Source: Blastopirellula marina DSM 3645
GTDB lineage: Bacteria > Planctomycetota > Planctomycetia > Pirellulales > Pirellulaceae
Direction of reading: 5' to 3'
DNA length: 64,000 bases
Assembly: GCF_000153105.1 (NCBI RefSeq)
Contig: NZ_CH672377.1
Location: forward strand, 1,582,405 to 1,646,404
Shown here: positions 39,932 to 57,888 of the stretch, piece by piece
How positions within the stretch are numbered: the stretch's first letter is position 1
How the letters are laid out: each line of letters starts with the position of its first letter
Notes under the pieces: generated by a model
What the model was told of the DNA's origin: nothing
Database searches by the model: none
Seen by the model: only the letters and a program-made list of their open reading frames with translations
Translations under genes and position numbers: made by a program

Positions 39932-41275
39932 TTACAGGAGTTCGCTCGCCAGATCGGCAAGATCCGAGCGTTCCCCTTTTTCTAGGCTAATATGCGCGTA
40001 AAGAGGTTGCCCAACCATGCGGTTGATCAAATAAGACAGGCCGTTGGAGAGCGAATCCAGGTAAGGATGATCAATCTGTTGAATGTCGCCGGTCAATATG
40101 ACCTTCGTTCCTTCGCCGGCGCGGGTGATAATCGTTTTCACTTCGTGCGGAGTCAGGTTTTGCGCTTCGTCAACGATCATGTACATCCGTTGCAAACTTC
40201 GGCCGCGAATATAGGCCAGCGGCGTGATGACCAGCTTTTCCATTTCGAGCATGCGGTTGATCTTTTGCGCTTGCTTATCATTCTCGCCAAACTGATGTCG
40301 AATGACCGAGAGATTGTCGAACAACGGTTGCATGTAAGGATCAAGCTTGGCCGAAATGTCGCCGGGTAAATAACCAAGATCTTTGTTCGACAGCGGCACG
40401 ACCGGACGAGCCAAAAGTATCTGTCGATAGTTAGAAGAACATTCGAGCGCGGAAGCGAGCGCCAGCAAGGTTTTGCCGGTGCCGGCTTTGCCGGCCAACG
40501 TGACCAGTTTTATGTCGTCATCAAGCAGCGCCTTGATTGCGAACAACTGTTCGGCGTTGCGCGGCTTGATCCCGTAGGGGGAGTATTTTTCGACGCGTTG
40601 CAAGAGTTGATTGTCGGCGTTAAACGTTGCCAGCACCGATTTGGAGCCGTTGCGGAGCACGAAATTCTCATTGGCGGTCGGTTGTTGCACCTCCGGGAAA
40701 TCGACGGCGTTGACAACGCCGCCATTTTGGAAGAAGCGATCGATCTGTTCCGTCGAGATGTTTTCGACGATGCGTCGCCCTGTGTAGAGCTTGTCGAAAC
40801 TCTCTATCTTGTCGTTGATATAGTCTTGAGCTTGCAACCCAAGACTCTTCGCCTTCATGCGAAGGTTGGTGTCCTTCGAGATCAAGATCACGCGCCGCTC
40901 GGGCGCGGTGCGCTGCAAAAAGAGGCCGGTGTTAAGAATGCGGTTGTCGGGGGAATCCGAAATAAAGACGCGGTTCAAGCGAGCGTCTTGTTCATGGCAA
41001 AAAACGACGCGTAACTTGCCGTGGTCATCGCCGAGCGATGCGCCCGCTTCTGAGAGAATGTCGCCTGTCAGTACGTCGATTTGGCGGAGAAACTCGCGAG
41101 CTTGGAAATGAATGTCTTCATTTCCTTTTTTGAATCGGTCCAGCTCTTCTAAGACCGTGATTGGAATGACAACGTCGTTGTCTTCAAAATTGCGGAAACT
41201 TTTGGCGTCGTGAAGAAGGACATTGGTGTCCAGCACAAACAGCTTGGGAAGCTGTTGGCCCACGTGATCAATCAT
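39932..41275 (-). CDS. PIN-PhoH family ATPase/RNA helicase-nuclease
   Basis: The 447-residue protein fuses an N-terminal PIN nuclease domain ([17 protein letters not shown], with Asp16, and [10 protein letters not shown] / [16 protein letters not shown] acidic residues) to a PhoH ATPase domain (Walker [15 protein letters not shown] around 260, Walker [12 protein letters not shown], then [12 protein letters not shown]). This is the PhoH2 (YlaK-type) architecture, thought to unwind and cut RNA. It is a single gene divergent from the FHIPEP-like gene. Confidence 0.93.
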
Positions 41276-41757
41276 GCGGTTTTGATCCTGAGCGAAACTA
41301 GATTGACAAATCTCAGACGGTCAAAACTCGGTTTCACCCGGATAATCGAAGGATCGCCATTTCGCCTCCCTTCATCGTCCAAAGACGACGCTACGTCCAT
41401 GCGGGTCGCCTGTCCAAAGACAGGCCTAATCAGGCGGCTCGGTAAAGCGCCAGCAAAGTCGCAAGCGAACGACGGAAAGCCGTATCCCTTGATGACTTCG
41501 GCTGCATGCCTTTGTTCTAAATCGATGCGGCGGCAATTGTCCATACGAACCGTGAAAATTCTTTGTATCTTTTTTAACCATGCTCGTCGTCGGAATCGTC
41601 GTATTCGGAACGCAATCTTCCTGAATCTGCCGCTCCACGCCGTTTTTGGCTCATGCAAAAGGTTGCCGCTTGCTTCGACTTGTAACTACAATCACGGTGA
41701 ACGCTTTGCTCGCGAAACGATTGCAGAATTCTCCTCGGATCAGGTAGGGGCGCTTCG
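41276..41757. promoter_or_regulatory. Divergent intergenic region (phoH / FHIPEP-like)
   Basis: This 482-base gap contains the promoters of two divergent genes. A 7-bp hairpin GCCTGTC-CAAA-GACAGGC lies at about 41408-41425. A minus-strand frame of 128 codons (41272-41658) is open, but begins at TTG, lacks an RBS and shows no protein-like composition, so I do not call it. Confidence 0.35.
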
Positions 41758-43227
41758 ATGGATTACTCCTCGATTCTTTCACGTTATATCGGCAGAGAAG
41801 TCTGCGTTTCGACTTTCGGTCACATCAAACTGCGAGGAGAGGTCGCGGCGATCTATGAAGATTGCGTTCGACTGATCAACGCCAGCTCGCAGGGGGACGC
41901 CGAAGAAGCCGCCTGGAACATCGATCCCGAGCATCACGGTCAGGAAGCGCTTGTTCATTTTCACCATATTGTCGCGATCAGCTGCGGCGACGAAGATTTA
42001 CTCGATATTCCAGTCGTCGCCGACCATGGCAAGTCGCCGTGGTACGCCGAGCCAGAAGAGAAAGTCGAAGCGAGCCTGCCCGATTCAACCGAACCATGGC
42101 GCTCCTATTTAGCCATGGATCGACTCTCGCTGGAGGTGGGGCAATCGCTGATCTCGATCGTCGCGCCGGAGTCGAAAGACTTTTTCGATCGGATGACGGC
42201 CGTGCGTTGTCAGCTGGCCGATTCGCTGGGGATTGTCGTGCCGAACATCCGCATGCGCGACAATCGACAACTGAGCGACAACGAATATCGCATCCTGATC
42301 GATGAGAACGAACTTGCCCGCGCTCGCTTTGGCCCCGGCAAATATATCGCGCTCGATATGGGTACCGCGACCGAAACCTTGGACGGTTCGCCAGGCGTCG
42401 ACCCGACTTTTGGCGGACCTGGAATCTGGATTCGGGCCGATCAACAACACGAAGCCGAAAAAGCAGGGTACCTGGTGATCGAGCCGAGCATGTTGCTGGT
42501 CACCCATTTGCAAGAAACCTTGCGTCGCCACTCGCACGAGATGCTGACGTTGGACGACGTGCGTCGATTGATCGAGATGCAGCGCGATGATCAAGCGGCC
42601 GAAGTCGAAGAACTGCGGGCCAGCCCGTTGTCGTTGTCGACCATCCACGCCGTGCTCGTGCGTCTGCTGGAAGAAGGGGTCTCGATCAAGAACTTTTCCC
42701 GCGTCCTGGAAACGCTCGTGCGACATGGCGCTCGGACCGGCGATGTAGAACTGCTGGTTGCGGCGGTGCGCGTCCGCTTGGGACGCCAAATCTGTCAGCG
42801 TTATCTGGATCGCGATGGTCGCGTCCATGCAATTGGTCTAGAGCCTGATCTGGAAGACCGTTTGCTGGAACTCAACGACGCCGGAGCCGGTCGCAAGGCT
42901 CGCCCTTGGGTCGAGCGTCTGATCGACAACCTGGCCGACAGTTTTCAGCAACTCGAAGAACAGCAACAGCCAACCGCACTGGTGACGTCGATCGATTTGC
43001 GCTGCAACTTGTGGCGGATGATCACGGCGCAGTTGCCGCGGGTTGCGGTGCTGAGCTTTGCCGAAGTCCCGCGCAATACCGAGATTTACTGGGAGATGCG
43101 AGTAGCGTCTGACGATATCGGGCTTCCCGAAGGGGGGGCGCGAACCGGCGCCGGCGCCAAGCCGTATACCAAAACAGCTCACTTGATTGAGAAGTTGGGG
43201 GAGAAAATGCCGCGTCAGCCTCGCTAA
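41758..43227 (+). CDS. Soluble FHIPEP (FlhA/SctV cytoplasmic-domain-like) protein with Sm-like N-terminus
   Basis: The 489-residue protein has no TM helix. Residues about 119-355 follow the soluble domain of FlhA/SctV export-gate proteins: DRLSLEVGQSLISIV, RMTAVRCQLADSLGIVVPN, IRMRDNRQLSDNEYRI, DPTFGGPGIWI, GYLVIEPSMLLVTHLQETL, and LLEEGVSIKNFSRVLETL. The roughly 300-residue membrane half that normally precedes it is replaced by residues 1-85, whose YIGREVCVSTFGHIKLRGEV and ALVHFHHIVAIS strands read like an Sm/LSm-type small beta-barrel. The C-terminal 130 residues are extra. It is clearly not a truncated gene: the start is clean and the frame intact. The role is unknown; no flagellar or type III secretion gene is nearby. 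Confidence 0.85.
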   Translation: MDYSSILSRYIGREVCVSTFGHIKLRGEVAAIYEDCVRLINASSQGDAEEAAWNIDPEHHGQEALVHFHHIVAISCGDEDLLDIPVVADHGKSPWYAEPEEKVEASLPDSTEPWRSYLAMDRLSLEVGQSLISIVAPESKDFFDRMTAVRCQLADSLGIVVPNIRMRDNRQLSDNEYRILIDENELARARFGPGKYIALDMGTATETLDGSPGVDPTFGGPGIWIRADQQHEAEKAGYLVIEPSMLLVTHLQETLRRHSHEMLTLDDVRRLIEMQRDDQAAEVEELRASPLSLSTIHAVLVRLLEEGVSIKNFSRVLETLVRHGARTGDVELLVAAVRVRLGRQICQRYLDRDGRVHAIGLEPDLEDRLLELNDAGAGRKARPWVERLIDNLADSFQQLEEQQQPTALVTSIDLRCNLWRMITAQLPRVAVLSFAEVPRNTEIYWEMRVASDDIGLPEGGARTGAGAKPYTKTAHLIEKLGEKMPRQPR

Positions 43228-43321
43228 TTGCGGCGGCGGAGTATTCTGGATTGCCCTCGAGCAGGTGAATGCGTAGGATTGGATTGTCACGTTTTTCTCG
43301 TTTCTATATGTCTGGATCTTG

Positions 43322-43783
43322 ATGATTCGTTTCGCCGCCACTTTGCTGACGATGTTGGGGCTCGCTTTGGGCTCAACAACCAGCGTGGTTTTTTCCGCTC
43401 CGCTCTGTGCGGCGCCGGGCGAAACGACTTGTAGCTGTGCGAAAGCGGCGACTTCTCTGGACGGGACGACACAGTCCTGCTGCAGCGTGGCCCAACCTGC
43501 ATGTTGCGGCGGTTCGCAAGGGAATTGCTGTCAGCAATCCTCCAGCGAGACGAGGATTACGGCTCCTTCCTGCGACGGTTGCTCTTGTTGCATCGAGCCA
43601 AGCGAGACGCCGCTTATTCCGGCAACGTCTAGCGAAACGCACACGCCGGTTGATTTGCTCACGTGGTCCGCTCCCCTCGCTCCCGAATATGCTTCTCCCC
43701 CGTTGTCTGCGTGTGATCGAGAAGATCTGCGTGCGGCGCGGACGGTTTCTTTGCAAGTTCTCCATTGTCGTTGGCTGAATTAA
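43322..43783 (+). CDS. Cysteine-rich exported protein 1
   Basis: The 153-residue product has a signal peptide (MIRFAATLLTMLGLALGS, cleavage near VFSAP). Fifteen Cys follow, many in pairs (SCCSV, ACCGG, NCCQQ, CSCCIE), suggesting metal binding or dense disulfides. The C-terminal third lacks Cys except two near the end. It starts at the ATG at 43322. It is 67 bases upstream of a second Cys-rich exported protein on the same strand. Confidence 0.68.
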   Translation: MIRFAATLLTMLGLALGSTTSVVFSAPLCAAPGETTCSCAKAATSLDGTTQSCCSVAQPACCGGSQGNCCQQSSSETRITAPSCDGCSCCIEPSETPLIPATSSETHTPVDLLTWSAPLAPEYASPPLSACDREDLRAARTVSLQVLHCRWLN

Positions 43784-43849: not shown

Positions 43850-44203
43850 ATGAAAAGTTTATTGGTTTTGGCTGCGCTCTTTTCGTTTTCGCTGGGCATG
43901 ATTACCTGGGCGTCGGCCGAATCGGCGCCGGTTGACAAGACCGCAGCGAAGACGTGCGAGTGCGTCAACTGCGCTTGCCCTGATTGCGACGGCGAAACGT
44001 GCTCGTGCGAAGTTTGCGAGTGCGAGAAGTGCGGTTGCAGCGAGAAAGCCGCCGCGGCCACGGCTTGTGCGGCCGGCACGGCGTCGGAAACCGCTTGTGC
44101 ATGCGACGCGGGATGTGAGTGCGAAGCTGGGTGCAAATGCTGCACCGGCGACGTTTGCACGTGCCAAGCATGTGAGTGCACCGCTTGCGACTGCGTTCTC
44201 TAA
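43850..44203 (+). CDS. Cysteine-rich exported, metallothionein-like protein
   Basis: The 117-residue protein has a signal peptide (MKSLLVLAALFSFSLGMITW, cleavage near ASAES). Beyond residue 35 there are 25 Cys, mostly in CxC and CxxC spacing (CECVNCACPDC, CSCEVCECEKCGC, CECEAGCKCC, CTCQACECTACDC), with acidic residues between. This is metallothionein-like in spacing but not a member of a family I recognise, and it is exported. A strong RBS-like GGAG is 13 bases before the ATG and a terminator follows, so it is a real transcript end. Confidence 0.78.
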   Translation: MKSLLVLAALFSFSLGMITWASAESAPVDKTAAKTCECVNCACPDCDGETCSCEVCECEKCGCSEKAAAATACAAGTASETACACDAGCECEAGCKCCTGDVCTCQACECTACDCVL

Positions 44204-46292: not shown

Positions 46293-46766
46293 TTAATCTT
46301 CTTTGCGAGCTTCGACCACATAAGAATCGAGGATCTCCGTATCAGGAGCCGGCGAAGGGGGCGAATCCGTTGTGAACCCATCGACCGTCGCAGAGGTCGT
46401 AAGATGAAAGTGTTTTTTCCCCCACTCGATTAGCCAAGCTTTGATCGGCTTGCGTAAGAAGGGAATCAGCAATGCAAACCCGGTGAGATCGGTCAGAATG
46501 CCCGGCGTGATTAACAGCACGCCGGCCAGCGAGATCAAAATCGCGTCAAACAGCGAATCGGTCGGCATCCGGCCTTGGGCGAATTCGCTCTGAATTCGGC
46601 GGTAGGTCGCAAATCCTTGATTTCGTGCTAGCATCGATCCGATCACGCCGGTGACCACGACCAGCGCTAACGTAAACAGCGGATCGGTTGCGCCAGCCAG
46701 AAACAGCAGCAGCGCCAACTCGGTCGTGGGGATCAAGATAAAAAGTAACAGTAGGATTCCCAGCAC
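46293..46766 (-). CDS. FxsA family membrane protein
   Basis: The 157-residue protein has three or four TM helices in the FxsA order: LLLLFILIPTTELALLLFLA, FTLALVVVTGVIGSMLARNQG, LFDAILISLAGVLLITPGIL, LTDLTGFALLIPFLRKPIKA. FxsA was first described as affecting phage exclusion in E. coli; its biochemical role is unknown. A soluble Pro-rich tail of about 40 residues ends the protein. Confidence 0.9.
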   Translation of the reverse strand: MLGILLLLFILIPTTELALLLFLAGATDPLFTLALVVVTGVIGSMLARNQGFATYRRIQSEFAQGRMPTDSLFDAILISLAGVLLITPGILTDLTGFALLIPFLRKPIKAWLIEWGKKHFHLTTSATVDGFTTDSPPSPAPDTEILDSYVVEARKED

Positions 46767-51347: not shown

Positions 51348-54300
51348 ATGGCAGTGCGCGGCTTTCTCCTAGCTCTACTCGTGCTTGGCTTCGCCGCACC
51401 GATTGCGGCTCACGAATGGCATGCTCGCACCGGGGGCTTTTCGGTCAAAGCCCAATTGGTCGAGCTGCGCGGCGGCGCAGTCGTCTTGAAACGAGACGAC
51501 AACGGTCAGGAGATATCGGTTCCGCTCGACAAGCTGAGTCTCGATGACATCCGCTTTGTGCATGCCGAATTGGCCCGTCGGAACGAGACGATCAACAACG
51601 GCGGCCCAGCCAAAATGCCGGCGACGGCGCCAGAGTCGAAGCCAACATCGTCGTTTGCGCCTCCTCGTCGCCCCACGACGCGACCATCTGCGGATCCGTC
51701 CGTCTCAACGACCGCGCAGGCTTCCACCGCTCGCCTGGACAGCAACGGCTATCCCATAACGCCGGCCAGCAACGCCGCAGCGCCTCGTGTCGCGATTGCT
51801 TCGCAGCAAGGATGGCAAGTTTCCGCCGATCCCAGCCCATTCGAATATGAAATGCCGAAAGACATGCAGGTGCAAGTAACCCTGCCGCAAGATCTCCGTA
51901 GCGCTGCACCGGTATACTCCGAACATCTGGGCCATTTCATTTTTTTTAGCGAGTCGTCCAACGCTTACCATGCGTTTCACCTCCCTACGAATAAGTTCAC
52001 CGGAACGATTCAGTTTGGTACCTATGGACCGCAACAGATCGCTTATAGCGCCGATGGTCGTTATCTGGCGGTTGTGATTCGCAACGATCCGACGGCTGTT
52101 CTGACTGCGGAGATTTGGTCCTTTGCGACAGGGCAGTTGGTACGCAGTTTCCCGATGGACGACAATCTGGCGACGATCTCGGCAATTCGTTTCGCGGGCC
52201 CAGATCACATCGTCATCGTCAAGAAGCAAATCGATCTGCTGGAATGCTATGACATCGCCACCGGTCGCCTGATCAGCGAAAGCACCGTTCCGGACTTCTA
52301 CAATAATACTTCAATGGCCGTCAGCCCCAGCGGCGCCTATGCGGCGATCTACGAATCAAAATCGAAGATGGTGCATTTGATTGATTTGCGTTCGGGGGTC
52401 GAAGCAGGCGTTGTCGGCGGTGAAGATCAGATCCCGAAAAATGCATCGCTTGTTCGCCTCTGTTTCTCACCAGATGGCGAAGAACTGCTCTTTTATTCGT
52501 CCGATCGATTCCGCCGACACCTGATCACTTGGGATATGCGCAGCGGCGAACCATTGGTGGATCTGAATTTTGAGGAAGATCCAAGCAAAAGGGGCATCCG
52601 AACCTATTCCTATGGAGGCCGTCCGATCGAATGGCGACCCGATCGAAGCGGTTGGCTGATTGCTGGTCGAGTGCTTGTCGAACGCAATCGGCCAGAAGTC
52701 GTTTGGGCTGACGAATCGCCCCATGGCAATTTCGATCTTCGCTCGTCCCGACGTTTCATCGACAACGACCGGCTACTGGTTCATTTCCAGAAAACCTATA
52801 CCGAGACGACTTTGTCCCTGATGAAACTTCCGATTGAGGAGATCGAAGCGACTCGGTCTCTCATCGCCAAAGGGGGTTCGGCAGTCGACCTTGGCTTGCC
52901 GCCGTTGACGCAAATCTTTGTCGGCCAGGCGCGAGAAATTGCCCCCAGTACGCAATGGAGCTATCAGCCCGACGTAGCGCCGCAGGTCGCCACAGCCGAC
53001 CTGAAGAGCAGCATTGACGTGCAAGCGACCTACCGCCGGTTGAAGAGTCTGAACATCTGCCGTGCGTCCAATCGCGCCGTCGTCGGTTTGGGTGAATTGG
53101 ACGCCAAACAACGGAAGCAGGGTTTCAATTCAAGCGACGCGCAGTATTTGGAACTGATCGATTTGGCGGAGGGAAAATCGATTCATCGCATGACGCTTCC
53201 GTTCGCTGCGCGCTTGATGGCGGTTGCCGGAACCGGCGACTGGGCTGCATTTGCGTCGTCCGGCAAGCGAGATCGCGTCGACCTGTTTGATCTGACGAGC
53301 GGCGACTCGGTTGTCGCATTTCGTCCCTTTGGAAACGGCGATGGCCAAATCAAACAAATGGCCTTTGGGTCTGATCGTGCGCTGCTGTGGATCTTGACCG
53401 ACGAAGGCGAATTGACGCAGTGGCGCTTGCCTGAATGCCGGGCCGTAGCGCGGCGCGATTATGGCAAAGGAGCCAGCATTCAGGCGTCTCCCAGCGGCCG
53501 CACTTTGTGCGTCGCTGCGTCAAAATCGTACGAGCTGATTGACGCCGATACCGGAAAAATGCTCGGCACCCTCGCTAGTCCGGATCGCTCGTTTCACCAT
53601 CATGCAGGTTATGTCGCATTCTCTGAAGATGGTCGCAAATTAGCGATTGCCCGCAAGTCGGGACGCCAACCGCAAGAGGTGATTCTGTGGAATCTGATGA
53701 CGAACGCCGCTGCGCATAAGTTCAATCTGCCGTACACGCCGTATGGACTTTCGTGGGGTTCCGACCTTGTGTTGCTGATTGACGTCGTTACGCCGATGGA
53801 CGAAGAGCAGGAACCGCGTCATCTAATAGCGGTCGATCTGCTGTCCAACCGCGTCGCATGGCACTACCGGCTGCTCATGGAAGGACAACATGGTTTTCGT
53901 GGATCGGACGGGCGCCATTGGTATATCGCCGGCGATCAGAGGCGTCGAGACTCGGTGTTGCACGCCGTTCAATTGCCGCAGCGGGACGAGCTGGCGAGAT
54001 TTGGCGGTTTGCAGCCGCTTGCGGCGCTGTTGGGCCCAGGCGATGCGATCAACGTTCGGATCGCTGCGTCAATTCCTTCCGTCGATCCGAAGCGGCCGAA
54101 TGTGAAGCAGGAACTACTCGAATCGTTGCAAGAGAGAGCGGTCGCACTGGGCTATCGACTTGATCCAGCGGCCGAATATTCATTTGTTCTGGAAGCGAGA
54201 GAGTCGGGGACTTCCCAATCGGTGAAAGTACAAGAGGTGGGAAAACGATCCGCCGTGCAGACAATTCCCATCTCCGAGGTGAATGTGTCGGCCAAGATCG

Positions 54301-54557
54301 TCAATCGCAGCGGCGCCACCGTTTGGACAGAGAAAAGCAGCTTCAAAACCAATGTCGGCTACTTCGCCGCCGTCCCTCAAGGGACGAGTCCGGCCGCCTA
54401 CTTTCGAAACCAGCAGTGGGAATCGGTGATCGGCTGGATGTTCGGCGCGCCGTTTCCCGGCGTCATTTTGAGCCCGGCCGCGTCGACCGGCGCCGGCGTC
54501 TCCTCTCTGTCGGCGTTGGGGGCGCGAATCGAGAGCGTTGCGCCACAATCAAACTAG
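51348..54557 (+). CDS. Secreted SHD1 / WD40-like propeller protein, paralog 1
   Basis: The 1,069-residue protein has a signal peptide (MAVRGFLLALLVLGFAAPIA), then an SHD1 domain (about residues 22-80: HEWHARTGGFSVKAQLVEL, LKRDDNGQEISVPLDKLS), a Ser/Pro/Thr-rich linker, and a long region of repeats resembling beta-propeller blades (YSADGRYLAVVIRND, LCFSPDGEELLFYSSD, AFSEDGRKLAIARKSG). A C-terminal domain (about 900-1069) follows with no known fold. SHD1 is mostly known from eukaryotic Sla1 and is widespread in planctomycetes. RBS AGGGG precedes the ATG. The next gene is a full-length paralog. Confidence 0.85.
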   Translation: MAVRGFLLALLVLGFAAPIAAHEWHARTGGFSVKAQLVELRGGAVVLKRDDNGQEISVPLDKLSLDDIRFVHAELARRNETINNGGPAKMPATAPESKPTSSFAPPRRPTTRPSADPSVSTTAQASTARLDSNGYPITPASNAAAPRVAIASQQGWQVSADPSPFEYEMPKDMQVQVTLPQDLRSAAPVYSEHLGHFIFFSESSNAYHAFHLPTNKFTGTIQFGTYGPQQIAYSADGRYLAVVIRNDPTAVLTAEIWSFATGQLVRSFPMDDNLATISAIRFAGPDHIVIVKKQIDLLECYDIATGRLISESTVPDFYNNTSMAVSPSGAYAAIYESKSKMVHLIDLRSGVEAGVVGGEDQIPKNASLVRLCFSPDGEELLFYSSDRFRRHLITWDMRSGEPLVDLNFEEDPSKRGIRTYSYGGRPIEWRPDRSGWLIAGRVLVERNRPEVVWADESPHGNFDLRSSRRFIDNDRLLVHFQKTYTETTLSLMKLPIEEIEATRSLIAKGGSAVDLGLPPLTQIFVGQAREIAPSTQWSYQPDVAPQVATADLKSSIDVQATYRRLKSLNICRASNRAVVGLGELDAKQRKQGFNSSDAQYLELIDLAEGKSIHRMTLPFAARLMAVAGTGDWAAFASSGKRDRVDLFDLTSGDSVVAFRPFGNGDGQIKQMAFGSDRALLWILTDEGELTQWRLPECRAVARRDYGKGASIQASPSGRTLCVAASKSYELIDADTGKMLGTLASPDRSFHHHAGYVAFSEDGRKLAIARKSGRQPQEVILWNLMTNAAAHKFNLPYTPYGLSWGSDLVLLIDVVTPMDEEQEPRHLIAVDLLSNRVAWHYRLLMEGQHGFRGSDGRHWYIAGDQRRRDSVLHAVQLPQRDELARFGGLQPLAALLGPGDAINVRIAASIPSVDPKRPNVKQELLESLQERAVALGYRLDPAAEYSFVLEARESGTSQSVKVQEVGKRSAVQTIPISEVNVSAKIVNRSGATVWTEKSSFKTNVGYFAAVPQGTSPAAYFRNQQWESVIGWMFGAPFPGVILSPAASTGAGVSSLSALGARIESVAPQSN

Positions 54558-54675: not shown

Positions 54676-57600
54676 GTGCGAACGTTCTTATGTTCTCTGC
54701 TTGTTGTTCTTTTCGCCGCGCCGGCGCCGGCTCGCGAATGGCATGCTCGCCAAGGCGGATTCTCGGTCAAAGCGGAGCTTGTCGATTTACGCGATGGATC
54801 GGTGTTTTTAAAACGAGACGATAACGGTCAGGAGGTTGTAGTTCCACTCGACAAACTGAGTCTCGAGGATGTCCGGTTTGTCCATGCCGAACTGGCCCGA
54901 TTGACCAACGCGATCAAAGGAAGCAGTCCCGTCGAGATGAATCGTACCGAGGCGGCGACGCGCTCACCCTTTAAACCGCCGCGTACGCCGACGAAGTCTG
55001 CGCCACCCAGTTCTGCTTCGTCCGTTGTCGCCGCACCCGAAAAGGATCTAGACAACTATCCCAGCATGCCGGCCAGCGGCGCTAAAGCGCCCCCGTTGCC
55101 GGTCGCAGGGCAACTAAATTGGCAGGCGGCGCCAGATCCGAGCCCTTATGACTATCGCCTGGTCGAGTCCGTTCAGGTCAACGCGGCTGCTCCGAACGAG
55201 AGCTATTCGCTGCATCCGAAATTCGCTGAGCATCCCAGCCACTTTGTGTTTTTTGAGGAAAGCTCGAAGAACTTCTCCGCATTTCATCTCCCTACGCAAA
55301 GACTCGTCGGCGAACTCAAATTCGATGAATATGGACTTCGAAACGTAGAGTACAGCCCTGACGGCCGCTACCTGGCGGTTTCTGCGCGGAACAAAGACAC
55401 CCACCAGATGGAAGTGCAGGTCTGGTCGTTCGTCACCGGCAAGCTCGTGCATTCGTTCGCCCCAGACGGCACGACCAGATTGATTACGGCGGTTCGCTTC
55501 GCCGGCTCGGATCGCATTGTGATCGCGTGTTCGGGGGATCGATTGATCTCCTGTTTTGATATTGCCACCGGTCGCAAAATCAGTGAAGCGAGCCTGCCTC
55601 TATTCACAAACGACGAGTCCTTGGCCATCAGCCCCGGCGGTTCTTACGCGGCGATATTTTCTTCCCTCGACAAGAATGCCCGGCTGATCGATTTGCGCAA
55701 CGGCGTCGAAGCAGGAGTCGTCGGCGGCAAGAGCGAGTTGCCGGCGTCATCCAGCTTGAAACAAATCAGCTTCTCGCCCGACGGTGAAGAACTGTTGGTC
55801 TATTCGACCGCGGGAGGAGGCCGGCATTTGGCGACCTGGGATATGAGCAGCGGGAAGCGACTGCTCGATCTAAATTTCCAAGAAGACCCCAGCAAAAGTC
55901 TCTCGCAGAGCTCTTCGTACCGGGATCGGCCGTTGGAATGGCGTCACGATCGTAGCGGCTGGCTCATCACGGGGGGCGCGTTGGTCGAACGCGGTTCCGC
56001 CGATATTGTGTGGATTGATCGTTCGCAAGGGGGCCCAGGCTTTTCGCACGAATCCCGCCGATTTGTCGACAATGATCGATTGCTGGTTTTTTCGAATGCG
56101 AACGATCGCCGCATGCGGATGTCGCTGCTGACGATATCGGCGGAGGATATCGCAGCGAACAGGGCGCTGCTCGCTAAGGGAGCGACCGCCGCGGACCATG
56201 GCTTACCACCGCTCACGCCGATCGCTGACGCAGAAGTGGAAGAAATCGAGACCAGCATCCAGTGGAATTATCAGCCCGACGTCGCGCCGCAGGTCGCCGC
56301 TAAATCCATGACATCAAAACTGAGGATCTCGGCGCCTTTGCTGCAACTTGGGCACGTGTATCAATGCCGCTCGTCGAATCGCGTCTTGATCGGATTGCGC
56401 GAGCCAGAGGAGAGCCGGCGATTGCACGGGCTCTCCACGATCGAGGAACAATATTTTGATTTGATGGATCTCGCAACAGGCAAACCGATGCAACGGACTT
56501 CGATTCCGTTCCCCACTCTGTTGAAGGCCGTGGCGCCAACCGGAGATTGGGCCGCATTTGTGACGAAGGAGAGCAAAGACCGCGTCGATCTTTTTGATCT
56601 GACGACCGGCAAGCCGGCGGTAGCGTTTCGCCCTTTTGCCAGCGGCGGCGACAAGATTGGAGCGCTGGCGTTTGGCTCTGATCGGACGATGTTGTGGGTC
56701 TTGTCGGAAGCAGGCGAACTAACGCAGTGGAAGCTGCCGGAATGCCGCGCTTTGGCGAGACGAAATTATGGAAGGTCGACCCGGCTTCAGTCGTCTCCCA
56801 GCGGCAGCACCTTGTGCGTGATAGCGCCAAGTCAGACCGAATTGCTGGACGCCGATTCGGGCAAAATGCTAGGTACGCTCGCCAGTCCGACCGACGAGCA
56901 GGTCAGCGGATACGGCCATGTTGCCTTCTCGGACGATGGGCGGCAATTGGCTTCTTGCCGCTTTTCGACCAGCGGGCCGCAACATGTGGTTCTTTGGAAC
57001 CTGACGGATAATCGCGTGGAAAAGACGTTTGAGATCCCGTTCAAACCCTCTTTTGTGGCGTGGGGATCCGCTGACGTGCTGTTGATCCGCGTTATGCACG
57101 ACGGCAAAAGTAAAGTGGTTATCGCCGACCATCTAGCAGCGGTCCACTTGCCGTCGGAGCGCGTCGTCTGGAATTATTTAATGCCCCATGGAGCCTTTGG
57201 CTCTCTCGGATCGGACGGGCGACAATGGTACGCAGCCAGCGCTTTGACACGTGCCGATTCGACCCTCGTCGCCGCCGAGATGCCCAGTCAGGCAGAGCAA
57301 GAGAGTTTCCGTGATTTGCGCCCCGTCGCTCCGCTGTTGACCCGTGGCGACGCGATCGCAATCAAGGTGGACGCCGAGGTCCCCTCGCTCGATTTGCAAC
57401 GTAAAGACCTGTCCAAAGATTTGCAGGAAGGATATGTCGCCAAAGCGCTGTTGTCCGGCTATCAGCCGGATCCCGATGCGGAGTATGTTTTGTCCGTGGA
57501 AGTGAGCGAAAAGCTGACGCCAGATACGCTCCGCCTGCGCGTGTTGGGGCAACTCTATATTGAGTCCGTTCAAGTCACGGAAGTGACCGGTCGGTTGCGA

Positions 57601-57888
57601 CTAGCCGATCGCAATGGGAATGTTGTCTGGCTCGAGGAGATCCGCGAAAAAACGAACGCCAACTCGGCTCGGCGAGGCTTGCCGCGAGGAATGAAGGCCG
57701 CGGACTTCCTGCGTCTGCAGCAGTGGCACAGCGTGGTTGAATGGCTCTTCAAAACTCCGATTCCGGCGACTTTCTTCGAACCTAGTTCTGCCGACGCCGC
57801 CGGCATCTCGGTGCTTACGCCTGAGGGGATTGATGTCCGCAAGCCGATGACGAAATCGAACGATAAGCCGGCCGATCAAGCCATCTAG
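54676..57888 (+). CDS. Secreted SHD1 / WD40-like propeller protein, paralog 2
   Basis: The 1,070-residue protein is collinear with the preceding one: signal peptide MRTFLCSLLVVLFAAPAPA, SHD1 (REWHARQGGFSVKAELVDL, LKRDDNGQEVVVPLDKLS), propeller-like blades (YSPDGRYLAVSARNK, ISFSPDGEELLVYS, AFSDDGRQLASCRFST) and the same C-terminal domain. Whole blocks such as GVEAGVVGG, NYQPDVAPQVA and RVDLFDLT are identical or nearly so, while linkers diverge. It starts at a GTG. It was formed by tandem duplication that included the upstream block. Confidence 0.85.
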   Translation: MRTFLCSLLVVLFAAPAPAREWHARQGGFSVKAELVDLRDGSVFLKRDDNGQEVVVPLDKLSLEDVRFVHAELARLTNAIKGSSPVEMNRTEAATRSPFKPPRTPTKSAPPSSASSVVAAPEKDLDNYPSMPASGAKAPPLPVAGQLNWQAAPDPSPYDYRLVESVQVNAAAPNESYSLHPKFAEHPSHFVFFEESSKNFSAFHLPTQRLVGELKFDEYGLRNVEYSPDGRYLAVSARNKDTHQMEVQVWSFVTGKLVHSFAPDGTTRLITAVRFAGSDRIVIACSGDRLISCFDIATGRKISEASLPLFTNDESLAISPGGSYAAIFSSLDKNARLIDLRNGVEAGVVGGKSELPASSSLKQISFSPDGEELLVYSTAGGGRHLATWDMSSGKRLLDLNFQEDPSKSLSQSSSYRDRPLEWRHDRSGWLITGGALVERGSADIVWIDRSQGGPGFSHESRRFVDNDRLLVFSNANDRRMRMSLLTISAEDIAANRALLAKGATAADHGLPPLTPIADAEVEEIETSIQWNYQPDVAPQVAAKSMTSKLRISAPLLQLGHVYQCRSSNRVLIGLREPEESRRLHGLSTIEEQYFDLMDLATGKPMQRTSIPFPTLLKAVAPTGDWAAFVTKESKDRVDLFDLTTGKPAVAFRPFASGGDKIGALAFGSDRTMLWVLSEAGELTQWKLPECRALARRNYGRSTRLQSSPSGSTLCVIAPSQTELLDADSGKMLGTLASPTDEQVSGYGHVAFSDDGRQLASCRFSTSGPQHVVLWNLTDNRVEKTFEIPFKPSFVAWGSADVLLIRVMHDGKSKVVIADHLAAVHLPSERVVWNYLMPHGAFGSLGSDGRQWYAASALTRADSTLVAAEMPSQAEQESFRDLRPVAPLLTRGDAIAIKVDAEVPSLDLQRKDLSKDLQEGYVAKALLSGYQPDPDAEYVLSVEVSEKLTPDTLRLRVLGQLYIESVQVTEVTGRLRLADRNGNVVWLEEIREKTNANSARRGLPRGMKAADFLRLQQWHSVVEWLFKTPIPATFFEPSSADAAGISVLTPEGIDVRKPMTKSNDKPADQAI

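Follow-up and report, generated by a model that had tools for sequence, protein, structure and literature searches.

An intact gene in the planctomycete Blastopirellula marina DSM 3645 encodes a soluble, 489-residue paralogue of the cytosolic domain (FlhA_C) of the flagellar export-gate protein FlhA, fused to an N-terminal domain of predicted Sm-like fold. The gene starts from ATG and occupies positions 41758–43227 of the forward strand in the window analysed here (the whole stretch of 64,000 nucleotides), and the preliminary description of this DNA, made from the letters alone, was right about both its exact limits and its integrity. FlhA_C is the docking ring beneath flagellar and injectisome export gates. 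The reading that we tentatively favour, and the simplest model that uses all of the conserved features, is that the soluble paralogue may still dock flagellar chaperone–substrate complexes and that the Sm-like barrel may take the place of the membrane domain as a module for assembly or targeting. Should the docking and ring residues be functional, a selected, membrane-free FlhA_C would mean that docking and export have been separated in vivo, and could open to testing whether the FlhA_C ring can act independently of the gate, for instance as a depot for cargo in the cytosol; should the function have moved elsewhere, a part of type III secretion would have been reused in the planctomycete cytosol. 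The FlhA_C domain and the Sm fold are known already. The membrane-free paralogue and the Sm–FlhA fusion are not described in the open PMC literature, as distinct from subscription papers and preprints, among the matches listed (titles and the starts of abstracts).

The FlhA-like part of the protein

The product had been read in the preliminary description as the cytosolic domain of FlhA or SctV without any membrane part, and this is borne out by Pfam, by hydropathy and by a fold search on the predicted model. The Pfam FHIPEP family matches residues 103–441 with an E-value of 1.3e-78, covering positions 313–656 of the 657 in the profile. The NCBIfam FlhA model (TIGR01398) matches at E 7.5e-85, and its 285.6 bits fall below the equivalog cut-off of 772.1, as is expected since the match is of half length; the hrcV (SctV) model of NCBIfam gives a weaker match than FlhA (E 2.7e-42). 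Comparison with solved structures by phmmer covered FlhA_C up to residue 443, and a Foldseek search with the middle region of the predicted model, a check that the preliminary description had proposed, placed solved FlhA_C on top (6ch1, E 3.2e-30). The region assigned from these searches, residues 113–443 (42094–43086, forward strand), takes in the end of FlhA_L and all four subdomains of the cytosolic domain, D1–D4. The membrane domain of FlhA, with its approximately eight helices and its FHIPEP loop, is missing: the match begins at position 313 of the profile and no hydrophobic segment is present. No membrane helix was found by hydropathy in the 489 residues, the top 19-residue Kyte–Doolittle mean being 1.18 versus 3.32 in the full FlhA of the same genome, and the number of windows above 1.6 was 0 versus 72 in that FlhA.

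The FHIPEP family occurs in two places in the 6.66 Mb genome (three contigs), namely the soluble gene, at profile positions 313–656, and a full-length FlhA on contig C2 (positions 2–655), which shares 34% identity with the soluble protein and lies beside an open reading frame that we take to be FlhF-like. Since the genome holds this complete second FlhA, the gene at 41758–43227 is a paralogue and not one half of a split gene. A membrane half lying nearby, which the preliminary description had named as the finding that would undo its reading, was looked for and is absent; with the full-length FlhA as the sole other FHIPEP place in the genome, a split FlhA gene was rejected. An injectisome origin was also rejected, because the match to FlhA is far better than that to SctV and because the soluble group does not fall among the second FHIPEP copies of the family in the tree of FlhA_C regions. 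The injectisome gate proteins SctV, YscV and InvA have the same fold, but the match to them is weaker than that to FlhA, and no injectisome gene is seen among the window reading frames that were scanned.

With FlhA, including FlhA_L, the soluble protein has in common the four subdomains, the linker tryptophan and the Asp/Phe/Thr docking dimple. It differs in lacking the membrane domain and FHIPEP loop, in possessing the Sm-like N-terminal domain and a 46-residue tail that ends in PRxPR, in being encoded away from flagellar genes, and in coexisting with a full FlhA in the same genome. The nearest precedent in principle is FlhX for FlhB. In Campylobacterota, FlhX is a soluble protein paralogous to the C-terminal domain of FlhB and so likewise a membrane-free paralogue of the cytosolic domain of a gate protein, although it belongs to the FlhB family and is not known to have an Sm-like domain. 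FlhX is also listed among flagellar secretion proteins (PMC9321776).

The Sm-like domain, spacer and tail

Residues 1–84 (41758–42009, forward strand) are the most conserved part of the protein and are predicted to form a small beta-barrel of the Sm/LSm type. In the full AlphaFold model, built with 17 homologues (pLDDT 75.5, with residues 46–60, 79–119 and 460–489 under 50), the N-terminus consists of a helix (3–8) and strands at 14–19, 23–32, 36–45, 63–67 and 71–76, and the FlhA_C part, which comes after a low-confidence spacer, is well predicted; modelling of the N-terminal domain alone gave about the same elements (21 sequences, pLDDT 76.1). The alpha helix and five-stranded bent barrel of the Sm/LSm fold are thus present as a prediction. 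In a Foldseek search of the PDB, 10 matches had E <= 0.001, and the leading ones, with a probability of 1.00 and E from 2.9e-4 to 8e-4, are Lsm1-7, a spliceosome chain, Lsm2-8 and archaeal Sm proteins. Judged by title, the 50 PDB matches listed are Sm, LSm or SmAP, spliceosome or snRNP chains, apart from two chains of the NatC complex; a match to a 'C* complex' is presumably spliceosomal as well. Among viral models, one match at E <= 0.001 was obtained, to a Gordonia phage protein named 'RNA binding protein' (6.2e-4). With Sm/LSm chains leading the PDB fold matches, the N-terminal barrel of this type that the preliminary description had proposed finds support on predicted models.

Kinship to Sm proteins at the level of sequence is weak. 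The Sm1/Sm2 signature (Pfam LSM) has no match in the window protein at E up to 1 and matches 2 of 21 relatives, with a best E-value of 4.2e-4. The uridine pocket of Sm proteins is made by an Asn of loop 3 and an Arg-Gly of loop 5; by eye, V37 stands at the place of the former and H67/F68 at that of the latter. Because these residues are missing by eye, canonical RNA binding is not supported for the predicted Sm-like domain, and the suggestion in the preliminary description that the protein might bind RNA gains nothing from the residues. In comparison with Lsm2, SmAP, Sm G and Hfq-like barrels, the helix and five-strand barrel are shared by prediction (Foldseek E 2.9e-4), but the sequence match is weak, the uridine-pocket residues are absent by eye and the domain is fused to FlhA_C.

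Among the 14 core proteins (described below), 45 of the 84 N-domain positions are invariant, versus 119 of 331 in FlhA_C, 1 of 28 in the variable, low-confidence spacer (residues 85–112; 42010–42093, forward strand) and 7 of 46 in the C-terminal tail (residues 444–489; 43087–43224, forward strand), which is likewise variable and of low confidence. The tail of the window protein ends in PRQPR, and PRxPR ends it in all 14 core members and in the divergent member G058. An arrival as mobile-element cargo was rejected, residues 1–121 having no match at E up to 0.01 in plasmid and phage collections. Relatives of the N-domain also exist as stand-alone proteins of about 95 amino acids in other Planctomycetota (L089:4335–4610, forward strand; L090:9339–9623, reverse; L088:3181–3477, forward), matching the N-domain profile at E 5e-7 to 2e-4 and having no FlhA_C part. 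The neighbours of the L089 and L090 proteins would appear to be dxr, rseP (site-2 protease) and a UbiA-like prenyltransferase, as we read them.

Distribution and descent

The N-domain profile matches 19 of the 241 genomes of the family, in 8 of its 68 genera. The core carriers number 14, comprising all four genomes examined of the own genus (g1), all nine of g43 (the nine g43 genomes of the family sample used), each with the whole protein, and one of g20. The architecture is accordingly present in 14 of the 14 genomes examined of three genera, which fall within one family, presumably at the level of Pirellulaceae to judge from the MAG names of relatives (Blastopirellula, Pirellulaceae, Planctomycetaceae and one 'bacterium'). 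The other 13 core proteins are 53–94% identical to the window protein. Divergent versions occur in four more genera: g58, g61 (cut by a contig end), g68 and g23. The g23 version (G108; L112:355–1782, reverse strand) is a very divergent protein of 475 amino acids in which the tryptophan and two of the three dimple residues are changed to unlike ones, possibly a sign of a later change of function. In g11 (G597), there is an N-domain fragment with a stop, and by eye no listed reading frame in its 3.3 kb reads like FlhA_C. Among 392 Planctomycetota genomes, N-domain matches occur in 10, these being seven core members and the three stand-alone small proteins; 242 match the full profile, and among the matches listed just the seven core members start at profile position 1. 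When a contig collection was scanned with the N-domain, 4 of the 82 pattern matches could be confirmed as loci (three in planctomycete MAGs and one in a MAG named 'bacterium'). The fused architecture was not found outside g1, g20, g43 and the divergent genera in the family genomes, the 392 Planctomycetota genomes and the contig collection.

By the look of the trees, the soluble FlhA_C would have split off from FlhA long ago and been kept by vertical descent in this Pirellulaceae group. A tree was built from 74 FlhA_C regions. The soluble copies of g1, g20 and g43 cluster in it as one group (95/99), and so do the flagellar FlhA proteins of these three genera (100/100), which is the pattern that vertical descent should give. 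A single branch has all 18 soluble copies to one side of it, with weak support for a common origin (71/49; 70% of 200 bootstrap trees) and with long branches. The soluble copy diverges faster than its flagellar counterpart, the identity between g1 and g43 being 59% for the former and 81% for the FlhA of the same genomes. The gene is open over its full length in the four own-genus, nine g43 and one g20 genomes, and dN/dS, calculated for six pairs from 7 of the 14 core genes, came to 0.063, 0.088, 0.069, 0.070, 0.068 and 0.070. Within the soluble protein, D4 diverges the most between g1 and g43 (53% identity) and D2 the least (69%), with the limits of D1–D4 taken from PMC7911332.

Other genera of the family contain second FHIPEP copies (L118, L120 and L122–L127) with open frames of 706–765 amino acids, and L128 is the sole copy of genome G117. 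L118 and L120 cluster within flagellar FlhA in the tree, and L122–L127 together with L128 make up a group of their own (91/72); the second copies are possible components of second flagellar or type III systems. In a further Planctomycetota genome, a FHIPEP match runs over several frames with many stops (L095, L100 and L101; G286:C1:618126–620040) and reads as a broken FlhA gene, through decay or sequence error.

Docking residues, neighbours and possible function

The residues by which FlhA_C rings assemble and dock chaperones have been mapped in Salmonella, where E351, W354 and D356 of the FlhA linker stabilise the ring and D456, F459 and T490 are the dimple that docks FlgN, FliS and FliT complexes (PMC8166844). 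The linker tryptophan (W350) of the Vibrio cryo-EM ring sits in a groove of its neighbour (PMC8213127), and L461 of Salmonella FlhA is essential for FliT docking (PMC5932034). In the phmmer alignment, W354 corresponds to W114 of the soluble protein (42097–42099), D456 and F459 to D215 and F218 (42400–42411) and T490 to T249 (42502–42504, all on the forward strand), and none of these four residues varies among the 14 core soluble proteins. Invariance at four sites of four has a chance probability of 0.016, a value not corrected for the choice of sites (background 119 of 331 FlhA_C positions). The longest stretch of invariant residues within FlhA_C is DPTFGGPG (215–222; permutation P 0.054), which holds D215 and F218. 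Of the four subdomains, D2 is proportionally the richest in invariant positions (23/49, versus 35/92 in D1, 31/80 in D3 and 27/101 in D4).

In 44 rows of flagellar FlhA (one locus being counted twice and one row coming from another family), the dimple reads D in 43 (E in one), F in 40 (Y in four, the FlhA of the own genome included) and T in all 44, and the W354 position is I in 29, V in 13 and L in two. The two other linker residues are not kept: E351 corresponds to D109, which varies among S, D, E, P and T in the core, and the flagellar rows likewise lack the E, reading K, P, R or Q there; D356 corresponds to S116 (A, S, P or T in the core), with D in 40 of the 44 flagellar rows. L461 is replaced by G220, and M641 and L642 are changed too, all three being mostly not kept in the flagellar FlhA rows. 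P442 and K548, as well as M641 and L642, differ in the core, and most of these four also differ in the family's own FlhA. At the tryptophan and the three dimple sites, the divergent members read L/E/Y/V (G058), P/E/S/G (G108), S/D/F/T (G068) and W/E/F/T (G061).

FlhA is present in 194 of 199 family genomes, and nearly all of the relatives are flagellated without the soluble gene; because of this prevalence of FlhA, co-occurrence with flagella is uninformative. The carriers also have FlhA, which in G058 is a contig-end fragment only. FliS was found in all 13 carriers tested and in 13 of 14 non-carriers, thus in 26 of 27 genomes, and the reading frame that precedes it in the own genome presumably encodes a FliD-like protein. 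FlgN matches were obtained in all 13 carriers tested, 12 of them over the cut-off; the FlgN profile also matches, under the cut-off, in the control Sulfolobus.

Since the linker tryptophan and the dimple are invariant in the core, and carriers have FliS and FlgN matches, a new role is no likelier than one still linked to flagellar export. The preliminary description had suggested that the ring fold of FlhA_C was reused for another purpose: the fold has stood up to prediction and fold search, whereas the ring is putative and another purpose is only a candidate beside a flagellar one. In the docking model that we tentatively prefer, the dimple (D215, F218 and T249) would bind substrate-loaded chaperones in the cytosol, that is, FliS with flagellin and FlgN with hook-associated proteins, and W114 would help the subunits to associate, with each other or with the gate's own FlhA_C ring. 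The Sm-like domain would stand in for the membrane domain as a module for oligomerisation or targeting, and the protein might thereby hold, queue or meter late export cargo ahead of the real gate. We infer such binding and ring formation, the role of the N-domain and any effect on motility.

The main rival to a docking platform is a protein repurposed outside the flagellum, in which the FlhA_C fold would be a cytosolic hub for non-flagellar partners and the Sm-like domain would bind RNA or protein, possibly with the PIN-PhoH protein encoded next to it; we regard this as a serious possibility, if on the whole an unlikely one. The PIN-PhoH gene (39932–41275, reverse strand; 447 amino acids; Pfam PIN_4 5e-36 and PhoH 3e-49) is the divergent neighbour of the soluble gene, which otherwise stands by itself, and its family is one of RNA helicase/RNase-type proteins. 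It adjoins the soluble gene in 14 of 14 core loci, and within about 9 kb the only reading-frame clusters common to the g1 and g43 loci are the soluble gene, PIN-PhoH and an FxsA-family membrane protein, a pattern that speaks for the hub. Divergent gene pairs can, however, persist in related genera without a shared function, and PIN-PhoH is also present, with other neighbours, in G011 and G097, two genomes in which FlhA alone matches the window protein. In G058, PIN-PhoH again has other neighbours and is not beside the soluble gene, and on account of these three genomes it was rejected as an ancestral neighbour. The FxsA-family gene (46293–46766, reverse strand) is found downstream in 12 of 14 core loci, 4.5 kb from the soluble gene in the own genus, and the contig ends in one of the two loci that are without it; no functional link to the soluble gene is assumed.

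FlhA genes usually, though not by strict definition, lie among flagellar genes. The preliminary description had seen no flagellar or secretion gene nearby, which holds for the 35 other window reading frames scanned: none matches any family of flagellar or type III proteins at E <= 0.001, and 29 have some Pfam match. These 35 are 31 of the 33 other frames of at least 260 amino acids (two overlapping longer ones were omitted) and four smaller ones. Upstream of the gene, a search for consensus pairs found a sigma-70-type promoter-like site, TTGCCG-N18-TACAAT (41663–41692, forward strand). When the 140 upstream bases are scored for sigma-70-type sites, the form TTGNCN-N18-TANAAT (9 of 12) comes out best in all 14 core genomes, the pair beginning 94–110 bases ahead of the start codon; taken by itself, the window has such sites at chance level (1 found versus 0.9 expected). 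Consensus sites for sigma-28 or sigma-54, in a form not calibrated to planctomycete flagellar promoters, are absent from the 300 bases upstream at 17 of 17 loci when up to two mismatches are allowed.

This housekeeping-type promoter, the lack of a flagellar neighbour among the frames scanned and the erosion of docking sites in some divergent members argue against a flagellar role. The conserved sigma-70-type site and the loss of docking residues in G058 and G108 suit the hub in particular, as do an N-domain more conserved than FlhA_C (45/84 versus 119/331 invariant positions) and an RNA binding protein of a phage as its sole viral fold match at E <= 0.001. The hub is set back by V37 and H67/F68 standing, by eye, in place of the uridine-pocket residues, and by a dimple and linker tryptophan that stay invariant throughout the core.

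It is also conceivable, though quite improbable in our estimation, that the protein is no free platform but a gate subunit or regulator, which would join or cap the flagellar FlhA_C ring, either in a mixed ring or as a competitor that tunes hook-to-filament switching. The kept ring-linker tryptophan is compatible with this, and when both copies were compared in 10 matched genomes, 57 positions of the FlhA_C part proved to be fixed and identical in the two. Another 41 are fixed but different, among them W114 (I in flagellar FlhA), and the mean identity between the copies is 31%, which tells against membership of a common ring. A more elaborate form of the docking model makes the Sm-like barrel a ring-former, giving a free cytosolic FlhA_C ring that would gather flagellar chaperones and perhaps also mRNAs of flagellar genes, transcripts on which PIN-PhoH would act too, so that cargo supply would be coupled to export away from the basal body; we hold this combination to be doubtful. 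That the gene is a degenerating duplicate without function is scarcely credible, as its faster divergence than FlhA and patchy spread (any N-domain match in 8 of 68 genera) are outweighed by dN/dS values of 0.06–0.09, which rule it out for the core group if purifying selection is accepted, by full-length open frames in the 4 own-genus, 9 g43 and 1 g20 genomes, and by the invariant sites of the core.

A hidden RNA element at the 5' end of the gene was considered and rejected. Rfam has no match in 40800–43400 at E up to 1. Fourfold-site divergence over the first 20 codons in the nine g43 genomes is 0.07 in the soluble gene and 0.06 in PIN-PhoH, rising to about 0.3–0.7 further on in both genes; in g1 the first 20 codons give 0.33 for the soluble gene versus 0.07 for PIN-PhoH. 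The low g43 value is therefore found equally in PIN-PhoH and not in the g1 gene, and because PIN-PhoH has it as well, it is taken to be, in all probability, an ordinary constraint on the start region.

Just downstream of the soluble gene, two small Cys-rich, secreted-looking proteins are encoded on the forward strand (43319–43783 and 43850–44203), neither with a Pfam match at 0.001; the first is present in the four own-genus loci, and the two are possibly metal-binding. Elsewhere in the window, two adjoining genes on the forward strand (51348–54557 and 54676–57888) encode proteins of about 1070 amino acids, each with an SHD1 domain, which takes its name from yeast Sla1, and with matches to WD40/beta-propeller families, most of them under the curated cut-off.
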